From Shinisaurus crocodilurus (taxonomy: Eukaryota > Chordata > Lepidosauria > Squamata > Shinisauridae), in the NCBI GenBank assembly GCA_021292165.1, contig CM037879.1, positions 283,066,272 to 283,130,271 on the forward strand: a stretch of DNA of 64,000 nt. Direction: 5' to 3'. The notes beneath the pieces are model-generated. The model did not search any database, was not told the DNA's origin, and was given only the letters and a program-made list of their open reading frames with translations. Made by a program: the position numbers and the translations under genes. Position 1 is the first letter of the stretch. Each line of letters starts with the position of its first letter. Shown here in pieces: positions 2,770-63,367 of the stretch.

Positions 2770-3060
2770 ACTCACAGGCCTGGCCTGAGTCATCAGCTGT
2801 GTGGTTAAGCCAAGGCTCCCAAGCAACAATTTAGTCCACAGCTCAGCACAACTTGGCTGCGGTTTTACAACCCTTACTGAGTATGGTCAGGGTTTTGGGG
2901 TGGGGAGGGCTAGATGATCAACCTGCATGCAACCCTCCATGGGTCAAATTATATCAAGGGAATGGGGCCACACCTCCTGAAGTCATTTGGTCCCCAGCTG
3001 GTGCCCTGGGTGGATGATCTAGCTGGAACCGGCTTTGCTGTGTGCTGCGCTTCCCCACTG
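2770..3060. other. unclassified non-coding stretch
   Basis: No repeat family recognised. The frames of about 86-115 codons that cover it extend into the palindromic MITE at 3077 and are artefacts. Confidence 0.35.
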
Positions 3061-3076
3061 GAGGAAGCCTGTACAC

Positions 3077-3212
3077 CAGGGCTCTCCAACCTTGGGTCCC
3101 CAGATGTTGCTGGCCTACAGCTCCCAGCAGACCCAGGCAGCATGGCTAATGGCAAGGGATTCTGGGAGCTGTAGTCCAGCAACATCTGGGGACCCAAGGT
3201 TGGAGAGCCCTG
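3077..3212. mobile_element. palindromic hAT MITE with 8-bp target duplication
   Basis: Same family as 609: starts CAGGGCTCTCCAACC and ends GGTTGGAGAGCCCTG. Flanks are CTGTACAC (3069-3076) and CTGTACAT (3213-3220), 7 of 8 identical. The arms are nearly perfect and the central variable portion carries the GCATGGCTAATGGCAAGG segment. Confidence 0.92.
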
Positions 3213-3220
3213 CTGTACAT

Positions 3221-4430
3221 AGTGATGCCCTGTGTCTCCTCCCATTGGGGATAGGACATGGCACAGACAAAAGCTGCTCAGCCCAACTTCGCTCATCCTT
3301 CAGTTTTCCCCATGAGGGAAGGAGCTCCTGCAACCACTGGACAAGTGCGCAGCTGTCACTCCCCCAGGGGAATGACAGATCAGAGATAGCAAGGGGATTC
3401 CCTGGGAGCATCCAAGCAGGGCTTGAGGAGGGGCAGGGCTTGGAGAGAGGAGCAATCAGGGTTTAACTCTGGCTTCCAACTCTGGGTTGTCTCTCCCCCA
3501 ATAAGCCAGAGTTTCCGGTTGTCACACAACACTAAACAACCTGGGGATGGAGCATCCCTGGGTAGTTCAGCCACTCCTGCTTGCAGTGGGAGTGATCACT
3601 CACAACAACCCAGGTTTTTTAAAAGGGGGTTGTTGCAATGTCCGAACTGGACCACACGGGCTTATCCAAGAATGGCTGTTTGCCCACCAATGTCGTTAAT
3701 AGTCGGGAGTACTGGGAAAGAATGATGGATGGCCAGCTAGAATTCCTTGCGGGCACCCACAGAGGTGGAAGAATGGAGCTAAACATACTGGCCCATGTCC
3801 AAAATTTGGCAGAGGGAAGGGACTCGCCCCCGACTCTCCTTTAATGCTCTGCACTGATCAGTTCCACACCGCTGTGATTTAGCCAATTTCCCAAGTAGGC
3901 CTCTGTATGTCGAGATGGAGCAACCATGGGAGAGTAATGATAATAAAGAGCACTTATCTGTGGCATATAAATTTTAATATCATTTCCCGTGCTCTTGACA
4001 AAGGTGTCGGCTAATTAGAAATACGTATTAGCTCAGAGGCAGTCCACGACCCATTACTGTAGCAGGGAAAGCACTTGCTTCATTTAACCATGCTTGGTTT
4101 TATTGCTGGATCACTCAGAGGCAGGTAAGTACAGCAATTAAGTATGAAGACAGAGCTAAATAGACCAGAATAAAGAGGGTCCGAACTATATTGACCCTTC
4201 ATTGGTACTAGCAATTCAGTTATCCTTGCTGATAGCCGACTGTACAAAATGGTGGATTCCACTACAGCTACACTACTCCTCCCGTGATATATATTTTTTA
4301 AAAAAGTATTTAAAAAGCAACAACAGTGTTTCCATACAGTCTAAATTGTGTATGCCAACTGCTTCACATAATTAATTGTCATAGAAATTATTCGGTCATT
4401 ACCAAAAAGGGTTTGTGAGCTCTCACGAAT
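3221..4430. other. mostly unique sequence with a possible conserved AT-rich block
   Basis: No recognised repeat or gene. From about 3925 to 4085 the composition changes to AT-rich DNA with several TAAT-type motifs (TAATGATAATAAAGAG, CTAATTAGAAATACGTATTA), unlike the surrounding repeats. This may be a regulatory element, but only comparison with other genomes would tell. Confidence 0.3.
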
Positions 4431-4436
4431 TAATGG

Positions 4437-4915
4437 GGGATGTGGAAATCAGCAAAACATATCATGGTTCTTCGAGTTCCAGCTTGAAGCTCGGTCCAAC
4501 GCATGTAACCGCTCGCCTCGCGTGGGCATAGCGGGCCGAAATCGGCCCCGCTCACGTCCACGCGGGGCTCGCGTAGGGCCTACCTTTTTCCAGCGGCGGC
4601 TCGCCTCTCTGCGGCGAGCCGCCCGCGCCACCCGCGCTGGTCATGTCGCGTCACATCCGGCCCCGGAAGTGATGCGACGGGACCCTGCGCAGGTGCGCTG
4701 GACCCCCACGCGACGTATTGCAGCCTGCGCAGGGTCCCGTTGCGTCACTTCCGGGGCCAGATGTGGCACGACAGGACCAGTGCCGGCGACTCAGGCGGCG
4801 CGAAGAACTGTTCTGCACCGCTCAGAAGATCGAGGCGGGGGTGCGCCGCCGCTGAGAGGTGAGCCCCCCCTCCCCAGGTTTGTGAACACCGCTGCGCATG
4901 TCTGTATAAGACTGT
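4437..4915. mobile_element. foldback MITE with shared left end and CpG-rich core
   Basis: The left end GGGGATGTGGAAATCAGCAA matches the left end of the A-rich MITE at 7416 (TAGGAATGTGCAAATCAGCA). The core is different: strongly CpG-rich, with an inverted repeat of about 48-bp arms at 4646-4693 and 4729-4775 around a ~35-bp loop. Arm mismatches are mainly CpG-type transitions. A GC-rich block at about 4505-4590 is shared with the Tigger-like copy at 11886. The right boundary is uncertain. Confidence 0.6.
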
Positions 4916-4919
4916 AACA

Positions 4920-5029
4920 TCAGAACAGCCCTGAAGAGCCTGATCTCATCTGATCTTGGAAGCTAGGCAGGGTCAGGTCTGGTTAGTACTTGGATGGGTG
5001 ACCCCCTTGGAATACCAGGTGCTGTAGGG
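4920..5029 (+). mobile_element. 5S rRNA-derived SINE head or 5S pseudogene
   Basis: The sequence follows eukaryotic 5S rRNA almost to its end: CTGATCTCATCTGATCTTGG, GAAGCTAGGCAGGGTC (box A region), GTTAGTACTTGGATGGG (box C region) and AATACCAGGTGCTGTAGG. The first ~15 bases of a true 5S gene are replaced. It runs directly into a tRNA-Ala SINE with no gap, so a composite SINE is as likely as a lone 5S pseudogene. It is too diverged to be a functional 5S gene. Confidence 0.85.
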
Positions 5030-5216
5030 AGGGACCATCGCTTAGTGTGATAGAGCACATGCTTTGCATGCAGAAGGTCCCAGGTTCGATCCCCGGCCTC
5101 CAGGCAGGGCTTGGAAAGGATCCTGCCTGAAACCCTGGAGAGCCGCTGCTAGTCAGTGTTGAGAATACTGGGCTAGATGGACCAATGGCCTGACTCAATA
5201 TAAGGCAGCTTCCTAT
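5030..5216 (+). mobile_element. tRNA-Ala-headed SINE, sense
   Basis: The head contains GATAGAGCACATGCTTTGCA and GGTCCCAGGTTCGATCCCC, the pol III A and B box regions of a tRNA; the anticodon-loop position reads TGC (Ala). The body includes CCTGGAGAGCCGCTGCTAGT and CTGGGCTAGATGGACCAATG, and the tail AAGGCAGCTTCCTATT. Other copies lie at 2560 (-), 11770 (-), 20165 (-), 35162 (+), 39466 (-) and 56880 (-). It is not a functional tRNA. Confidence 0.9.
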
Positions 5217-18540: not shown

Positions 18541-18725
18541 TTCCTTATTTATTTATATCATTTATTTCTTATATTTATAGCCTTCTTTATTTCCTGCAAG
18601 GAACTCAAGGCAGATTACGTAATCCTCCTCCTCTCCATTTTATCCTCACAACAACCCTGTAAGGTAGGTTAGGCTGAGAGTTGGTGACTGGCCCAAAGTC
18701 ACCCAGTGAGCTTCATGGCCAAGTG
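18541..18725 (-). mobile_element. Sauria-like SINE, antisense, head missing
   Basis: TTTATTTCCTGCAAGGAACT, CATTTTATCCTCACAACAAC and GACTGGCCCAAAGTCACCCA are the reverse complement of the SINE at 16398; the tRNA head is absent after CTTCATGGCCAAGTG. Confidence 0.88.
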
Positions 18726-18812
18726 CCAGATGGCCCTGTGGTGAGGAAGGGGACAGTCTAGTTGTAGCAGAAGCTGAAGCATTTCTGGGGTCAGCTGTGC
18801 TTTCTCCTAGAC

Positions 18813-18948
18813 CAGGGCTCTCCACCCTTGGGTCCCCAGATGTTGCTGGCCTACAGCTCCCAGCAGACCCAGCCAGCATGGCTAATGGCAAGGGATTCTG
18901 GGAGCTGTAGTCCAGCAACATCTGGGGACCCAAGGGTGGAGAGCCCTG
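18813..18948. mobile_element. palindromic hAT MITE with perfect 8-bp target duplication
   Basis: 136 bp, starts CAGGGCTCTCCACCC and ends GGGTGGAGAGCCCTG, flanked by TCCTAGAC on both sides (18805-18812, 18949-18956). Both ends carry matching substitutions (CACCC/GGGTG rather than AACCT/AGGTT), consistent with arm homogenisation before or after insertion. Confidence 0.93.
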
Positions 18949-18956
18949 TCCTAGAC

Positions 18957-19456
18957 AATAGGTGTTTGGCTATGGTGATACATACCCTGTAACCTTCAGA
19001 TTAGATCCTGCCAAAGTTCAGAGTTTGGGGGAACTGTAAATGAACTTCTCCGGTTTGTAACCTACACGCCCTTTACACGCCATAATCAACCCCATTGGAA
19101 GTCCAGGCTTGGCTTGCAATGGGCTTAGTCCACCACTTCCATTTCCTACCCAAGGCGATCTTGGGATGGTGGCGATGCCAGGCACTACCGTAAAGTCCTC
19201 AAAGGTGGCACACAACATCCAGAGTCTCTGGGAACCACGGGAGATATAATTGAATTGTGATCTGGACATTTGTCAAGCTGGCTTGGGGAGTTGTTGTTTT
19301 TTTTTTTTTTTAAAGTATATATTTGAAAGGCAGATATAAACACTGCAAATAAAATAAATTCATAGAGCTCGTCCGCTGTGTGAAAAATCCACTTTAAAAG
19401 CTGACGTGTTTCATCTTCAGCATATGAAAGAAGTATTAATGTTCAGTACAGCCTCC
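18957..19456. other. unique non-coding stretch
   Basis: No recognised repeat or gene; poly-T at 19297-19310. Confidence 0.35.
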
Positions 19457-20164: not shown

Positions 20165-20452
20165 GATGTTAAGAACCGAGGAAGCTGCTTTATACTGAGA
20201 CCATTGGACCATCTATCTCAACATTGTCTACAGCAGCCTACCCCACCCCCAGTGCCTTCTAGATGTTTTGGACTTCAACTCCCTTATGCCCAAACCAGGA
20301 GGGCCAATGGTCAGAAATGCTGGGAGCTGTAGACTGAAGGGCAGCAATGGCTCTCCAGTGTTTCCTAGCTCGACCTGGAGTTGCCATGGATCGAACCTGG
20401 GACCTTCTGCATGCAAAGCAGGTGCTCTACCGCTGAGCTACAGCCCCTATAG
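20165..20452 (-). mobile_element. tRNA-Ala SINE, antisense, carrying a nested MITE
   Basis: Outer parts are SINE: GAGGAAGCTGCTTTATACTG and CCATTGGACCATCTATCTCA on the left; GGCTCTCCAGTG, CGAACCTGGGACCTTCTGCA and CTACCGCTGAGCTACAGCCC on the right. The junction TGTCTACA...ACTGAAGGGCAGC is where an intact SINE reads TGTCTACACTGACTGGCAGC, so the DNA between was inserted later. Confidence 0.85.
20230..20335. mobile_element. hAT-like MITE nested in the SINE
   Basis: CAGCCTACCCCACCCCCAGT with TTCTAGATGTTTTGGACTTC and CTGGGAGCTGTAG belong to the palindromic MITE group. The right terminal arm is shortened, so the duplication is unclear. Confidence 0.65.
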
Positions 20453-33081: not shown

Positions 33082-34695
33082 TGTGTTTCCGACATTGCCT
33101 AGTCAGAGAAAAGGGCCTTCACCTTCCTGGTCAGCTTGGGAGCTTCAAGAAGCATCTTCTTAGGCACTGTTGTAAGCAGGATGGCGGGACCAAAACGGAC
33201 CTCAATCTGATCCAGTGGCAGTCCTTGCATTCTTAAGTTTCGCAGTGTTTTGTAGAGTTATCAGTCTGTTTCCGAGATTGGCATTTTCTGCGTGGGGCTG
33301 CTAATGCCCTCATTCAGTGGCCTAATTGTTACGGGGGTTGCTTATAAAAGCCAATCATGTGTTAATTCATTTGGTATTCATTGTGAGACCTTTAATCATG
33401 ATGGATTAATTTGTTATAAATGCGGATATAATATGTTATTTCATAATATCGCCACTGCAATTTAGCAATTAAATAGTCTGCTATTATTTCAATCACTGCC
33501 CAGATCTTTTATCATGTTACAGCAGTTTTGCTCTGTAGTGAATTATGTTACATGGTGTAAAGGACAATGACATCAGCTCTCTCTCTCTCTCTCTCTCCTT
33601 TTTGGGAGCAGGAACACAAAGGGGAGATATAGTTGCAACATGCTCTTGATATTATCAGTCTCCCACCCACCTTAATTGTTCCTTAAGGATCAGTGAATGG
33701 AAACAATAGGAATAATGAATGCCAATAGCACTACTTTGGGAATAGAATCGGCACTGACAGTCTCCATATAGTACATTTTCCTACTGCAAGACTGAAGAAG
33801 AAGCAACTTGGCAGTTGTGGCTGCACAGAGTCCGTCTGCGAGAGGTGGGGGTTGTGGGGTCTATGGTTTTGCGGGTCTTAAGGAGGTGCAGCCCAGCCCA
33901 GAAGGGCATGAGGTGGCCAATGGTGTGCCCTTTGTGGGTATGAAGGAAAGGAGGGGTGGATGAACACCACCAACTTGCCAGCTCACAAGCCCATTGGGCT
34001 TTTATAAGTGCACCATTCGAGTGCCCGCACCCCGGTGCCCGCTGGGTATGTGAGCCCTTCACTGCCCCTTGCCAGCAAGGAGCGTGTTTCTCTGCTGCAA
34101 ATGATGCTGCGCATCTCGTTTTCCTGCAGGGGATCATGGGACTTGTAATCCAGCCCATCCATCAGTGCACTGGTGGGAAAAGTTGCTCTTCATGGGTTGG
34201 ATCCAGATTTACTCTGGATCGATCAACTGCACTGATGGAAGTGGACTTCCTTGCCGCTTCCTCCCTTCCCACGGTAGGCCCCTGGAAATGCTACACAGAG
34301 AGTCAGGTGACCCTGCTGAATGGGGTGAGCTGCGATGTAGGGGAGGGGGATCCCCAGAAATTGAGCAGAGGGACCTTCCCCTGAGCAGAGCCCTTCCTCT
34401 CACAGAAGGCAGATCCTAGATCCACCCCCATGTCACTTACTGGCGATTGGGCAACTAGCAGTCACTTCTGTGCTAATGGGGGGGGGATGACAATGACTTC
34501 CCTCCACTTGCTATCTTTTCCTCTCCCCATGTTGAGTCTGTTTTTGTCATCCTGGAGAAAGGGGAAGGACTTAAAGGAGGCCGAGTGGGGTGCAAGACCA
34601 ATTGAGGAGGAACTTGAACAGGGATGCTCACATGGTTGAACAGCCCTGGATAAATTCTAAAGGAAGGCAACCTCATCATTGGCCGTGAAGTCTAG
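33082..34695. other. mostly unique sequence with a possible conserved AT-rich block
   Basis: A (CT)n run is at 33578-33598. 33280-33520 is AT-rich single-copy-looking DNA with many TAAT/ATTA motifs (CCTTTAATCATGATGGATTA, TAGCAATTAAATAGTCTG). From 33780 to 34440 there is GC-richer sequence with frames of 125 and 142 codons on opposite strands; neither resembles a known protein. Confidence 0.3.
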
Positions 34696-36607: not shown

Positions 36608-36889
36608 ATCTAGGCAGGCAACCACCCTATCAAAATGACCTCCGTCACAACGTACATCCATTCCTCCTTGTCTGAGACACCAAAAGGCCTGCCAAGAAGT
36701 CACAGTATGTCAAAAGAGGGCTTGGGGACTGTGTCCTCATTAAGGAATCACACTTCAGAAAGGAGCGGGTGGGGTTTGGCCCTAGACATCGTGGCCTACA
36801 CCAATATTGAACCAAGACTTGGTTCAGCTCAGAGGCGTAGCGTGGGGGGTGCAGGGGGGGCCGGCCGCACCGGGCGCAACATCTGGGGG

Positions 36890-37134
36890 GGCGCGCTCGC
36901 ACTCGCAGCTCTCTGCCCCAGCTCTTCCTTCCTCCTGCTCCCCCCCGAGAGGCGGCTGCCCTTGGAGAAAGGGGCGGATCAGCCACCGCCCCCCCTCGCT
37001 GCTGCCTTGCCGCCGCCGCCGCACCGGACGGGTCGTGCGCCTCGGAGAGCGCGCGGCAGGGGAGGCAGGAAGGAGGCGCCGGCCGTGTGCTCGCGCCGGG
37101 CAGGCGGAGGGCAGCCGCGCGCGGCGCGTGGGCC
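36890..37134 (+). promoter_or_regulatory. CpG-island-like sequence upstream of the captured exon
   Basis: Dense in CpG and GC (GGGGCGGATC, CCGCCGCCGCCGCACCGG, GAGAGCGCGCGGCAGG), unlike the rest of the window apart from the small CpG hairpins. Its position directly before a first exon suggests a captured promoter or 5' UTR. Whether it has promoter activity is unknown. Confidence 0.55.
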
Positions 37135-37263
37135 TTGGAGCACTGGAAGGGCGCGTGGCGCTGGTGACCGGCGCTCGTGGGCATCGGGCGGGCCGTGGCC
37201 CGTGCGCCTGGTGCAGCGCGGCATGAGGTGGTGGGCTGCGCCCGGAGCGTGGACAAGATCGAG
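37135..37263 (+). pseudogene. DHRS11: DHRS11-like exon 1 fragment inside the hAT element
   Basis: DHRS11 is a cytosolic NADP-dependent short-chain dehydrogenase/reductase. Translation gives the N-terminal Rossmann segment in three frames: GRVALVTGA (frame of 37155), VGIGRAVARA (from 37177), LVQRGMR (from 37208) and VVGCARSVDKIE (from 37228). Together these hold the cofactor motif TGxxxGIG and the beta-2 region as remembered for DHRS11. The coding part ends GAG at 37263, directly followed by GTATGG, a good splice donor at the place where the family's first exon plausibly ends. The start codon position reads TTG, and at least three indels break the frame. Only this exon is present. A related SDR gene is a less likely source. 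Confidence 0.78.
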
Positions 37264-37264
37264 G

Positions 37265-37547
37265 TATGGAGGGAGACCGAGGAGAGAGAGGAAGGAAGGA
37301 AGAAAGAAAGGGGAGAAGAGAAAGAGAGAGAGAATGGGGAGGGGAGGAAAAGGAGAGAAAAGAATGGAGAGAGAGAAGGTGGATGGAGGAAGAAGAAAGA
37401 AGAAAGAAAGGGGAGGACTAGAGATAGAGAGAGAGGGAGAGAGAGAGAAAGAGGAGAAAAGAGGAGAGAGAAAGAAGGGAAGGAAGGAAGGAGAAGGGGA
37501 GGGAGGAAGAGAGAAAGAAAGGAAAAGAAAGAGGAAGGGAGGAGGAG

Positions 37548-37582
<35 letters not shown>

Positions 37583-38150
37583 GAAAAGAGAGAGAGAAAG
37601 AAGGGAAGGAAGGAAGGAGAAGGGGGAGGGAGGAAGAGAGAAAGAAAGGAAAAGAAAGAGGAAGGGAGGAAAAGAGAGAGAGAGAATGAAGGGAAAGAGG
37701 AAAGATGGGGAATGAGAAAGGGGTAAAGAAAGTTGGGGAGACGAGAAAAGGAAGGATGGAAGGCAGATAGAAAGAAAGAGAAAGGGAGGGAGGCAGGAAA
37801 GGAAGATGAGGAAGGAGAGGAAAAGAGTGACGCGGAAGAAAGGAAAGAAGAGAAAGAAGGAAGGAAGGAAGAAGAAAGAGAAAGAGAGAGAGAAAAAGGA
37901 AGGACAAAGCGGAGAACAGCAAAGGAGAGAGAAAGGAAAATGGGGGAAAGGAGAAAAGAGGAAAGGTAAAAAGGATGGAGAGAGAAAAGAGGAGAGAGAG
38001 AAATGGGAGAGGGTGGGAGGGTGAAGGGAGGAGGGGAGAAAAGTGGGGGGAGAAAGGGAAGAGGAGGGCAAAGAAAGAAGAGGTACATTTTTAAAAAGCC
38101 CGAAAGGGAGGAGGGAGAAAGGAAATGGGGCTAGAGAAAGAAGGGAAAGG
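37265..38150 (+). repeat. ~890-bp purine-rich GA tract
   Basis: Almost entirely A and G on the plus strand (GGAAGGAAGG, GAGAGAGAGA and GAAAGAAAGG units). It begins right after the exon donor, so it probably derives from the donor gene's intron 1, expanded. Long frames on both strands (363, 369 and 425 codons) are composition artefacts. (CCT)n follows at 38278-38325. Confidence 0.92.
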
Positions 38151-38883
38151 GTGTTGTGGGGAAATGGGATCGGGGGACGGATGAAATGAAGAAATGGAGG
38201 AGGCAGGAAGTTGAGTTGAAGGGACAGGTGGAAAGCGGGAGGAGGCCCGAGCAGAGCAGAGCAGCGCGGGGTGTGTCTTCTCCTCCTCCTCCTCCTCCTC
38301 CTCCTCTCCTCCTCCTCCTCTTGGGGAGTCTCCCTTATTGCTTCTCCCTCTTTCTAGACCTCTGTGTGACCTCCCCGAATTTAAATTAATCTGTATATTA
38401 TATACAGATTGATATCTTGCACTTCTATTAAAGAATTACAATTAGAGGTACAGGATTGAGGAAGTTGGCTCCATCTAGCCCAGTCTTGGATCATCTCCAG
38501 GGTATGGTTCCATTTTGATGTTTAGTTTTTGTTCTTGATATTTTTTGTCGTTTACGATGGTTGTGAGACGACATATAATAGCATGGCCCATGCTAGGTTA
38601 CTACATTTGTAGATTTGTATTCATAGACCTGCTGAAAATGTGGAGAATGTGTAATGCATGTTCGCACTCAATAAAGTGTTTGAAAATAAACTTGTATTTA
38701 GATGCATTTTACTTTAATTACATCAGTATTTTCATAACAAACAATACATGTGCTTAGGGGGTAAGGGTTTCTTTAACTAATCTAGTGGAAGAGACTCAAG
38801 TGCTAAAATCCACGGGTTAGGGGGCGCAAATTACTTGCCTTGCCCCGGGTGCTGACAACCCACGCTACGCCATTGGTTCAGCT

Positions 38884-46680: not shown

Positions 46681-47490
46681 TTCTTTTTTTCCTGTTCTTC
46701 TCTTTTAAAAAAAAAAAAAAAAATGAAAATTAAGCAAAATGCACAAATTTCTTCCTATTTCGGAAGGAACATTTGAATGGGGGAGAAACCAAAACTGAAA
46801 GATTCATCCGTTCCTACAAACCACATACCTTGCACATATTTGGCTTCTCAAGTTGTGCTGCAAGAATATATGTGTGTTTGTAACCCAAGATCTTACAAGG
46901 GGTGGGGGTGGAAACAGTTAGATAAACTTAGATTGCCGTGCAATTCCTCAAGGATAAAGTTTGTGCACGTTTCTGATTATTTATTTTCCATTTCTACTTT
47001 AAATGCTGAAGAGCAGCAGAGATGAGAAAGGTGAAGCTGAAATCCTGTGAAAACCAGATTTAAAACTCCAATGTACTTGTTTGCAACTCCGCTCAGAAAC
47101 TGAACCAGACCAAAGGTCTAATTCCCTCAAGCTGTTATGTGTGGGTGGTTCACACCCGTAGCCCAAGGGTGCGTGGGTTACACACAGAACACAGCTCGTG
47201 TGGGAGTGAGGAAAAGGAAGTCAGACAGAATACGCTGAGGAATGTGATCATCAAGGTCAAGAAGTAATCATTCCATAGGCCATGTAATGACAGTAGTCAT
47301 AGCCATAAACTTGAGATTTAATATATTATATGCTAATTTTGATAATCAAAGCAGCTGTCAACCACGAAGTGCCCTGTGGAATACTGAGGTCTTTTTGAAT
47401 CTTTTCTGTTGTTGTTGTTTTTAAAAAAATCAATGGTCTGGTCTCCAGGGTGGACCTGTGTCCATTTTGTCAGAGGTCAGCCCTCTAAAT
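46681..47490. other. A-rich MITE remnant and unique DNA
   Basis: 46735-46817 (GGGGGAGAAACCAAAACTGA, GATTCATCCGTTCCTA) is the right end of an A-rich MITE. 46820-47400 is unrecognised; 47270-47380 is AT-rich single-copy-looking DNA. Confidence 0.35.
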
Positions 47491-47628
47491 CAGGATTCTC
47501 CAACCTTGGGTCCCCAGATGTTGCTGGACTACAGTTCCCAGAATCCCTTGCCATTAGCCATGCTGGCTGGGTATGCTGGGAGCTGGGGGCCAGCAACATC
47601 CCTGGGGACCCAAGGCTGGAGAGCCCTG
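47491..47628. mobile_element. palindromic hAT MITE
   Basis: CAGGATTCTCCAACCTTGGG to GGCTGGAGAGCCCTG, with arms CCCCAGATGTTGCTGGAC and GGCCAGCAACATCCCTGGGG. Flanks CTCTAAAT and CTCTTGAT match 6 of 8. Confidence 0.85.
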
Positions 47629-47639
47629 CTCTTGATGAA

Positions 47640-48060
47640 GGTGTCCTTGATTTCAAGGGTTGTCCAGTCCGAAGATAAAGAGCCATAAGATGGTAGAGCA
47701 GGGAAGCTGCCCGTGAAAAGTTAGCACGTGGTCGGCAGCAGACTAAACAGATACATAGGCCACTCGGTCCCAGTGTTCATCACTATGGTGAGATGTATTG
47801 TATTTTGATTTAAATTATAGATTTCCCTCCCAAAAGTTAGCATCTATACATGCAAGTCGGCATATGCAAAATGTATAAAAATCTGTGTTCTCTTTTGGGG
47901 TGATGCATTTCCTCTTTTGCCAACGCATAAGTGGCCGCCCTAATTGTCACTAGCAGAGATACAGGCCTGGCCCATACATTTGCTGGTGCCAATGGGGCAA
48001 TTCACATGGGGAAGGAATTAGCACGCACCATGCATGCACCCCTTCCTCTCCAGCACAGAG
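47640..48060. repeat. second copy of the unclassified GTCCTCTTTT repeat
   Basis: ATGGTGAGATGTATTGTATT, AATCTGTGTTCTCTTTTGGG and GTGATGCATTTCCTCTTTTG match 24690-25130 in order. The class is unknown. Confidence 0.6.
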
Positions 48061-60471: not shown

Positions 60472-63367
60472 GTTTTTTTTTTTATTTATTTATTTTAAAA
60501 ATAATGAATACAACAACAAAAAATACAACATAAACATTGTGCACCCCCCCACCTCTTGTGACCAAGTTATATTTCTCACCCCAATTTTTTTTTTTGTATG
60601 TGTATATATACAAGCTATTATTCTATATTCCAAAAATATAAGAAATCTTGACAAGCTTTGTTCCCCCTCCCCTTTACCAACACATAATCCAAAAATTTGC
60701 CCCAAATGTTCACAAAGGTGTCTTTCTCCAATTGTCCTTTTTGACACTTAATATTACAAGTTAATTTATCATTTAACGCGATATCCCATACCTCTGTATA
60801 GCATTCATTAATTGAAAACACATGTTGAACCTTCCAATTCCTAGCTATCATTAATTTTGCTGCTGTTAACAAATTCACAATCAATTCTTTTGTATTTTTT
60901 AAACAAACTAACTTTTCTGTAATTGTTAACAATGCTAATTTTGGGCAGACTTCTAATTCCATTCCAAATATTTCTGATATTTCTGCAAATAATTTCTGCC
61001 AAAATTCCAGAACATTTTTACAGCTCCACCACATGTGGGCATACGTACCTTTTACATTACATCCTCTCCAACACAATGCGGAGCAATTTTTATCTATCCG
61101 ATTTAATCTTACTGGGTTAAATACCATCTCCATACCACTTTATAAAAGTTCTCTTTTATCCTAGTTGACATAACTCTTACAATACGCCTATCCCAAATAT
61201 TTTTCCAACTTTGTTTCGATATTTCCTCATCAAATTCATTATCCCATAACACTTTAAGAGAATCTTTATGCTCTTCTTCATTTTGTAACATCGTATATAA
61301 AGCCTTTGTTGTGCCTCTTGTTGAAACATTACCTTCTATAGCTTCTCTAGTCAAAACTATCTTTTCAAAATTGGTTAGTTCTCTTTCACTATCCATTCTT
61401 GTCCTCCACTTCTTTAACCACAATTCCAATTGCATTGAATTTAACCATGATATTCTCTCTCTTCCTACTATTTCTATTATATGTTCTCTAGTCTTAATTT
61501 TTTCCACCCAATCCATTAATTTAATCACCTTTTTTCTCCTTAATATAGCTTCTAGATGTCTTACATTTTCTGGAAAGTCCTCCATGGCCACTACCGGAGT
61601 TAACGGAGATACCTCTGGTATAAAAATTTTCCTCGTGTTATTCCAACTCTCTAACATACTCCTCAAAAAGGGATTTTCTAGTCCTTTTATAATATTATTT
61701 ATATTTTTCTTAAATAATATATTCACCATCATGTTTCCTAATTCTCGTGCTTTTAGTTCCAACCACATTTTGTCTTTCCCTGCTATAATGTCCAAAATAT
61801 GTCTTACTTGGTTGGCTAAATAATACCACTTTATATTAGGAAGACCTAAACCACCTATTTTTTGCGCTTTATACCAACTATATTTATTAATCCTTGATCT
61901 TTTCCTTCCATTACAATATTCATTAATAATTGATTGCCAATCTTTAATTTCTTTTTCTATAATCTTTACTGGTAACATCCTAAACAAAAAGTTTATTTTG
62001 GGCAATATCTTCATTTTTACCAACGCTATTCTGCCAAACCAAGAAAGTCCAATTTTTTTATACTCCTCTATTTTATTTTTAACCTCTATCTTTAACTTTC
62101 TAAAGTTTTGTTCTCCTGCTTTATCAATATCTTGTGTAATTTCTATTCCTAAATATTTAATTACATTTGTAATTTTAATGTTATATTTTTTCTTTAACAT
62201 TTCACTCTCCTCTTTTTTACTATAATTAAACAGTAAAATCTTGGATTTACCCCAATTCATCTGTAGCCCAGTTATTTCTCCAAATTCTTTCAAGTGGTTC
62301 TCCAACCTATCCATTGTTTCAATTGGATTTTTAATTGTTAATAAAGTATCATCTGCAAATAAATTTATTTTAATTTGATCTCCAACCCCCATCCCTATAA
62401 TATTTCTATCTTCTCTTACTACATTTGCTAGTATTTCCATCACTAATGCAAACAAAATAGGGGAAAGGGGACATCCTTGTCTAGTTCCTCGGTCTAAGGA
62501 AATTTTTCCGTAATACCATCATTTACCACTACATTTGTAATATTATGGGCATATAATTGATTAATTACTCCTTTAAATCTTGCTCCAAACCCCATATTTT
62601 TAATGATCATTTTTAACGTAGGCCATTCCACGCAATCAAAAGCCTTGAAAATATCTAATGCTAATACACCCGCTCTAACATTATTTTTCTTTATACTATA
62701 TATTATATTTAATACTCTTCTAGTTAAGTCGGCCATTTGTCGACCTGCAATAAATCCACATTGGTCCATCCCTACATATTTACTCATAAACCTATTCATT
62801 CGTCTCGCTAGTATTGCAGTAAATAATTTTGCATCTTGATTTATTAACGAAATGGGTCTATATGAATCTGATTCTGTTAAATCCTTTCCTGGTTTTGGAA
62901 TTACTATAATCATAGATTGTTTCCATGAGGGGGGAATTTCTCCCCCTTCCATTATATTATTATATAATAACTTCAACCTTGGAATTAACATATGTTTAAA
63001 AACCTTGTAATATTCCACCCCTAATCCATCTACTCCTGGGGTCTTGCCTTCTTTTAATTTATTTATAGCAAAATCTATCTCCAAATCTGAGAATGGTTGC
63101 TCCATCGTCTCTCTCTCTATCTTCTTCTTGTATTCTTATTTTCATATGTTTTTCAATATATTCTTTAATCCTATCTTCCTCACCTATTCCTGCTTTATAT
63201 AATTCTGAATAAAATTCTTGAAAATTTTTTAATTTTTCCTTCATCAAATTATGCCCTTTCCCTTTTTTATCCTTTATTATTCCAACTATATTTTTTCCCC
63301 GTTTTTTTTGTGTGGATCTAGCTAACATTTTAGAATTCTTGTTACTATTTTCAAAGTAAGCTCTTTT
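60472..63367 (-). mobile_element. 5'-truncated L1 LINE with target duplication
   Basis: Flanked by CAGGTGGCAG at 60462-60471 and 63368-63377. On the plus strand the left junction is a T run (poly-A tail of a minus-strand insertion). The right copy continues TTTT, so the duplication may be longer by overlap with the tail. The element covers the RT and C-terminal regions of ORF2 and a short 3' UTR; ORF1 and the endonuclease domain are absent. This pattern is target-primed insertion with 5' truncation. Confidence 0.93.
60618..63328 (-). pseudogene. L1 ORF2 relic (reverse transcriptase to C-terminal Cys motif)
   Basis: Read along the minus strand: 63328-63059, 63105-62494, 62455-61109 and 61133-60618 form consecutive parts. 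Visible motifs: KLKEGKTPGVDGLGVEYYK, YRPISLINQDAKLF, QCGFIAGRQM, catalytic LDIFKAFD, catalytic FADDT, YLGIEIT, and the C-terminal CWRGC...GTYAHMWWSC cysteine/histidine motif. Three frameshifts but few stops, so decay is recent. In an intact element this enzyme copies the RNA into DNA at the target site. Confidence 0.93.

Follow-up and report, generated by a model that had tools for sequence, protein, structure and literature searches.

A hAT element holding a genomic piece of the DHRS11 5' end, and the large Pack-hAT family to which it very probably belongs

The window analysed here, a whole stretch of 64,000 nucleotides of a squamate genome, contains at positions 36830-38875 a hAT element with an 8-bp target-site duplication (TSD), the interior of which is a genomic piece of DHRS11. 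The parts of the element are the following.

36822..36829, no strand: left target-site duplication GTTCAGCT, identical to the right copy
36830..36846, + strand: left terminal inverted repeat CAGAGGCGTAGCGTGGG
36830..36919, + strand: left hAT end, common to the autonomous element L079x and sister Pack elements
36920..38377, + strand: captured DHRS11 segment, matching the gene at C1107:~182471-181090, minus strand
36947..37134, + strand: CpG-rich DHRS11 5' flank/5'UTR, a promoter by position only
37135..37263, + strand: DHRS11 coding exon 1, decayed in the window copy (TTG for ATG, frameshifts)
37264..37269, + strand: splice donor GTATGG of DHRS11 exon 1
37264..38377, + strand: initial part of DHRS11 intron 1, a purine-rich tract for most of its length
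38349..38357, + strand: acceptor-like TCTTTCTAG, so called by sequence match, which occurs within DHRS11 intron 1 too
38378..38875, + strand: right hAT end of 498 bp, with the end of the transposase frame, the 3' UTR and the right terminus
38670..38690, + strand: two AATAAA hexamers, poly(A)-signal-like, within the hAT part
38859..38875, - strand: right terminal inverted repeat
38876..38883, no strand: right target-site duplication GTTCAGCT, identical to the left copy

A sequence-only reading of the window had described perfect 8-bp duplications around the element and matching 16-bp terminal repeats at its ends. The two copies of GTTCAGCT, at 36822-36829 and 38876-38883, are indeed identical, and terminal repeats are present, but as a 17-bp pair with 2 mismatches (CAGAGGCGTAGCGTGGG at the left and, inverted, CAATGGCGTAGCGTGGG at the right) rather than as a perfect 16-bp one. 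When the 17-base repeat was searched at up to 3 mismatches the window gave 3 matches where 0.05 are expected, namely the two element ends and one 3-mismatch site at 34268. The right ends of other copies are slightly different from that of the window copy, being mostly CAGTGGCG; in most copies seen the terminal repeats are CAGAGGCGTAGCGTGGG and CAGTGGCGTAGCGTGGG, short (~15 bp) and starting with CAG, which is the hAT type, unlike the right end of the window copy, which reads CAATGG.

The CpG-dense block of the same reading is also there, as positions 36830-37290 (461 bp) have a GC content of 0.757 and a CpG o/e of 0.90; the 2-kb flanks of the element have CpG o/e values of 0.25 and 0.36. The donor had been placed directly after a codon for E, and GAG is followed by GTATGG at 37264. 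The consecutive peptide pieces that had suggested DHRS11 are real but spread over three frames, since the window copy carries small indels, and TTG stands at the position of the gene's ATG. Joined by X, the pieces match best PDB 1xg5 (41.4 bits), which we take to be human DHRS11, the runner-up among 384 matched sequences being a 3-oxoacyl-ACP reductase at 33.8 bits. Of the promoter, first exon and donor said to have been captured, the exon and the donor thus stand, whereas the promoter is one by position and CpG content.

Elsewhere in the window, a 5S rRNA-like match (4913-5030, + strand, 56.4 bits) lies in CpG-rich sequence at 4-6 kb and may be either a 5S-derived SINE or a copy of 5S itself; a tRNA match lies at 20376-20447 (- strand, 56.5 bits) and a LINE-like reverse transcriptase at 61109-63135 (- strand) in two long frames (RVT_1, 57.2 and 50.8 bits). 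Variants of one translated string (e.g. GPQMLLDYSSQNPLPLAMLAGSAGSCRPATSGDPRLESP) recur on both strands, at 471-755, 2949-3299, 3023-3466, 18646-18969 and 47477-47776, and on that account the window contains an interspersed repeat. Searches of the window against Rfam and of nine of its frames against Pfam returned background features only.

The donor gene lies on another contig, C1107. With the human DHRS11 protein as the query, the exons of the host gene were found in order on the minus strand, exon 1 at 182264-182127 and then exons from 167458, 166539, 164836 and 162875 downwards. The comparison with this locus that the sequence-only reading had proposed yields an alignment of the element to C1107:182471-181090, a span of 1,382 bp in which 210 bp precede the ATG and the 132-bp coding exon is followed by ~1.04 kb of intron 1. 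As the segment matches the 5' end of DHRS11 in its genomic form, intron included, it is a transduplication of an unspliced gene piece, as had been supposed, and not a retrocopy; a processed retrocopy is rejected on the retained ~1.04 kb of unspliced intron. A chance peptide match is ruled out by the PDB match, the ordered gene exons and the genomic alignment, and another SDR gene as the source by the donor exons, which follow DHRS11 in order. Nor is TCTTTCTAG the sign of a designed mini-gene, being already inside the DHRS11 intron.

The left junction of the captured piece is fuzzy, lying within 36920-36946, and the right one is sharp (CCCCG/AATTT), GACCTCCCCG being followed by AATTT in the element and by TCTTC in the gene, with a microhomology of just 2 bp (CG). 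When compared with the gene, 44-46 of the 46 copies from which the segment could be extracted have four point changes in common, which fits a single capture of DHRS11.

Copies with the same interior in different flanks, for which the sequence-only reading had proposed to look, were found in the window's own genome (2.19 Gb) and carry TSDs of their own. The first search for them, in which the best 40 of 2,249 candidates were scored, gave 56 matches. The DHRS11/hAT 3' junction, searched as a 30-base pattern with up to 2 mismatches allowed, is present at 221 places (reversed control, 0), which may not all be separate elements, as two on C2 point in opposite directions at ~240 bases from each other. 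For a 58-base pattern within the right part of the hAT, with up to 3 mismatches allowed, the count is 399 places (control, 0), and an exon-1-like match was listed at 141 places among the 147 DHRS11 matches listed, the rest being 4 other DHRS11 exons, 1 apparent other SDR gene and the gene's own exon 1.

Among 68 loci examined, 54 had a left/right pair of ends, picked by the fewest TSD mismatches, and 14 had none (L004, L023, L029, L030, L038, L039, L040, L041, L046, L047, L065, L067, L069 and L071), L029, L030 and L038 being the DHRS11 gene itself. Paired ends were present at 48 distinct places among those fetched, and 47 of these have a perfect 8-bp TSD, the duplication length of hAT elements; these 47 complete copies are the 54 paired loci minus L053 and L064, which are one place, and minus five duplicates. 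At the L053/L064 place 7 of 8 TSD bases are mismatched and two DHRS11 exon-1 copies lie inverted, ~90 bases apart (C6:61790220 and 61790446). The complete copies measure 1,042-2,123 bp (median 1,815), and 42 of the 47 have the exact DHRS11 junction. As the same junction recurs at 221 places and the complete copies have their own 8-bp TSDs, the data argue for one chimera and many transpositions. The last 490 bp differ from the majority sequence by a median of 0.4%, the outliers L031 and L054 being internally deleted, and by this sequence measure the DHRS11 copies are young. L031 (C1:170429794 region) also contains a middle piece of foreign sequence, its right end is ~7% different from that of L008, and template switching between related hATs is possible there. 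The left junction of L003 differs, reaching further into the hAT's own 5' block (110 on L079x), and this copy looks recombinant.

The ATG, an ungapped open frame and the donor are kept in 26 of the 47 complete copies, the window copy being within the 47 and outside the 26. An 18-bp deletion that removes the donor is common to 7 copies, and ACG replaces ATG in 8, two of which are frameshifted as well. As both defective groups multiplied, neither the donor nor the start codon was needed for spread. By a looser test the frame is open from ATG to donor in 29 of the 47, of which 25 have in addition the acceptor-like TCTTTCTAG and AATAAA; conceptual splicing from the donor to TCTTTCTAG gives a 47-aa peptide ending in TSV. 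The joint occurrence of frame, acceptor-like site and poly(A) signal in 25 of 47 copies would suit an element that is a small transcription unit, in which the DHRS11 promoter, exon 1, donor, a cryptic acceptor and the hAT poly(A) signal make a 47-aa truncated protein or drive neighbouring genes. Yet the donor-less (7/47) and ACG (8/47) groups multiplied all the same and the acceptor is a sequence match, and we hold such a function to be unlikely, if by no means negligible.

The right part of the DHRS11 element begins at the end of a transposase frame of the type found in L079x, a complete element of 3,772 bp with TSD GTTGTTTA, a left end of the DHRS11-element type, a CpG-rich 5' block of its own and an 825-aa open frame. 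The frame of the sister copy L075, 98.5% identical to that of L079x, contains the Pfam domains DUF4371 (PF14291, 2.3e-16) and Dimer_Tnp_hAT (PF05699, 8e-12), and L079x, with both ends and its 825-aa frame, is a partner of the kind that has a hAT dimerisation domain. Among the best 55 of 2,144 candidates scored, at least 13 stop-free frames run from residue 1 or 2 to 825 at 98-100% identity, two of the 13 being shorter than the query span and therefore containing in-frame gaps. With its 13 open frames the autonomous hAT is possibly still active. In L081, L082 and L084 just the 3' part of the transposase frame is left. L075 and L085, at C1:87478153-87480627, are one open-frame autonomous copy; no left end was found in the ~2.6 kb upstream of the L075 frame, and its 5' part is unlike that of L079x. 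Compared with PDB, the transposase had no match at E <= 0.01.

An insertion of a DHRS11 retrocopy or segmental duplicate into a resident hAT would likewise leave gene sequence between terminal repeats, and the sequence-only reading had named hAT copies free of DHRS11 as a sign of it. Such relatives exist, yet compared with L079x the hAT middle of the DHRS11 element is missing and not split, that is, replaced rather than interrupted. As the middle is replaced and the DHRS11 junction is common to 221 places, that sign does not apply; taken with the unspliced intron 1 and the separate outer TSDs of every complete copy, this leaves a later insertion extremely improbable. It might also be supposed that the DHRS11 5' end once had a hAT copy on each side, that the two moved jointly and that the composite was later internally deleted, whereby the order hAT-DHRS11-hAT would be expected as well, and internally deleted copies do exist (L031, L054, L077). 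However, no hAT terminus was found at up to 3 mismatches in C1107:160001-199000, the 39 kb around the gene, each junction fuses mid-hAT sequence straight to the gene, and the breakpoints of elements that differ in their interiors fall in similar outer zones, so that we consider a composite origin improbable. The explanation that we put forward with high confidence is that the window element belongs to a non-autonomous hAT family (Pack-hAT) that is both large and young, and is a chimera that captured its interior from DHRS11 and has moved many times.

The same hAT ends also enclose other interiors, among them GAS7 and PLK1 pieces, which, like the autonomous partner, the sequence-only reading had not anticipated. 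We sampled 12 places on C1 that have the hAT right part without an exon-1 match, drawn among the 24 exon-match-free of the 36 C1 rows listed, all exact matches, of the 399. The DHRS11 junction is present in 18 of the 36, and L078 and L083, two of the 12 sampled places, turned out to be DHRS11 copies. The stretches fetched contain no left end for L075, L078, L081 and L082; L084 is without its first 61 bp, and in L074 and L080 the fetched stretch ends before the right terminal repeat, so that their TSDs lie outside the data.

L074 has a GAS7-like first exon, scoring 106.5 bits to GAS7 versus 46.2 to the next non-GAS7 protein and followed by GTGAGC, and looks like one such element nested in another. 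L080 has a PLK1-like first exon, with 142.2 bits to PLK1 versus 83.9 to PLK2, followed by GTAGGC, and L077 is a shortened relative. Of the 16 places with PLK1 exon-1 sequence, 8 have it in full and 8 in shortened form, and one of the 16 is presumably the PLK1 gene. From the exon matches we infer that the GAS7 and PLK1 pieces were captured from host genes. Each of the GAS7, PLK1 and DHRS11 pieces consists of 5' sequence, the first coding exon and a donor-like GT, all oriented as the transposase gene; a captured intron part is proven for DHRS11 alone among the three identified captures. On L079x the left shared sequence ends at 74 for PLK1, 85 for GAS7, 90 for DHRS11, 91 for L076, 98 for L084 and 102 for L073, and the right part measures 399 bp for PLK1, 414 for L076, 498 for DHRS11, 521 for GAS7 and 568 for L073. 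As all junctions differ, the captures were separate events. Other interiors between the same ends, CpG-rich at the left, were seen at L073:1187-3254, L084:1-2595 and L076:1940-3287; these are possibly further captured gene starts, and part of the L073 and L084 interiors could be the element's own 5' block.

The DHRS11 piece is flanked by the ends of an intact autonomous hAT, ~90 bp of sequence at the left and 498 bp at the right, and this chimera formed once and then transposed repeatedly. In the mechanism that we propose, the DUF4371/Dimer_Tnp_hAT transposase would mobilise the Pack elements in trans. More tentatively, the captures may have arisen through template switching while a hAT copy was being repaired or replicated. 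The GC content of L079x is 0.75 in its left 110 bp and 0.37 in its right 570 bp; the joining of the GC-rich left subterminal part to a CpG island and of the AT-rich 3'UTR part to an intron would explain why gene starts were taken and in the same direction. The identified captures are three, too few to prove a bias towards gene starts. For Pack-TIRs, gap filling has been proposed where there is a single copy and fork switching where there are several (PMC8277862), and both models are compatible with the data at hand.

The transposase of L079x has an identity of 98.0% with a protein of the newt Pleurodeles waltl, over 814 aa, and of 96.8% with one of Pelobates cultripes, over 534 aa; two transposase copies inside the host genome are 1.5% apart. 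As vertical descent would hardly leave a squamate host with near-identity to both a salamander and a frog, this comparison of proteins, in which contamination is possible, suggests that the hAT reached the host by horizontal transfer. A second, related hAT family is present in the genome (31 rows, 34-37% identity), and as 20 of its rows have the same score it may be recent too. Hemicordylus capensis P0115 likewise shows 37% identity.

Taken further, a recently arrived, active hAT might systematically package CpG-island gene starts through GC/AT-biased template switching and so seed hundreds of alternative promoters with donors, some of which rewire host genes; we regard this broader scenario as possible, though it falls well short of being likely. 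Mobile DNA may be spreading gene starts in a vertebrate, and the near-identity of the newt transposase suggests that an incoming element can package genes of its new host soon after arrival. Owing to the youth of the family, the junctions, the DHRS11 donor, an open-frame autonomous element and at least three gene starts can be read directly. Two questions thereby come within reach of a test, namely by what route TIR transposons acquire DNA and whether a first exon taken up with its donor turns into a new promoter.

Among the open-licence papers listed in literature searches we recognised no description of this family, and part of the element's end sequence, sought in print, gave 0 matches. What is new is the copy number, the capture of one gene 5' end after another and the presence of an intact partner. 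Bat Helitrons reportedly carry gene fragments (the Helraiser study), and a NUBPL promoter is a case of Helitron spread; the likeness is that of a vertebrate DNA transposon spreading host gene pieces to many places. Helitrons are rolling-circle elements without TIRs or TSDs, whereas the window element is a cut-and-paste hAT. Plant Pack-MULEs belong to the Mutator superfamily, have 9-11-bp TSDs and show an acquisition bias towards GC-rich 5' sequence; there too one element family repeatedly captures GC-rich gene starts, but the present element is a hAT with an 8-bp TSD, and we rejected membership among the Pack-MULEs, which takes a 9-11-bp TSD and a MULE-type TIR. A closely similar hAT in distant vertebrates recalls hAT-6_XT, described as a horizontally transferred vertebrate hAT (PMC11008031, where SPIN is cited). 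In the main text of that paper 'captured', Pelobates and Pleurodeles occur 0 times; the present hAT has a 98.0% transposase identity to Pleurodeles.

Close counterparts are the Pack-TIRs of animals, which are mainly Pack-hATs (Tan et al. 2021, PMC8277862), and with which the window element shares host gene DNA between TIR ends and a TSD outside them. As in those, the interior is non-TE DNA with a parental locus elsewhere (DHRS11 on C1107), and several copies exist, each with a distinct TSD. For cut-and-paste transposons of animals, multicopy gene captures are reported there as very rare, the survey of 100 genomes describing four multicopy cases ('1.4%') and an example with three copies, and in frog a 291-bp piece of the CAPSL 5'UTR was amplified by hAT-N8_XT (PMC8277862). 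Compared with the animal Pack-TIRs as described in that survey, the present case differs in 221 places for one capture, in two more gene starts and in an autonomous partner with an open frame.
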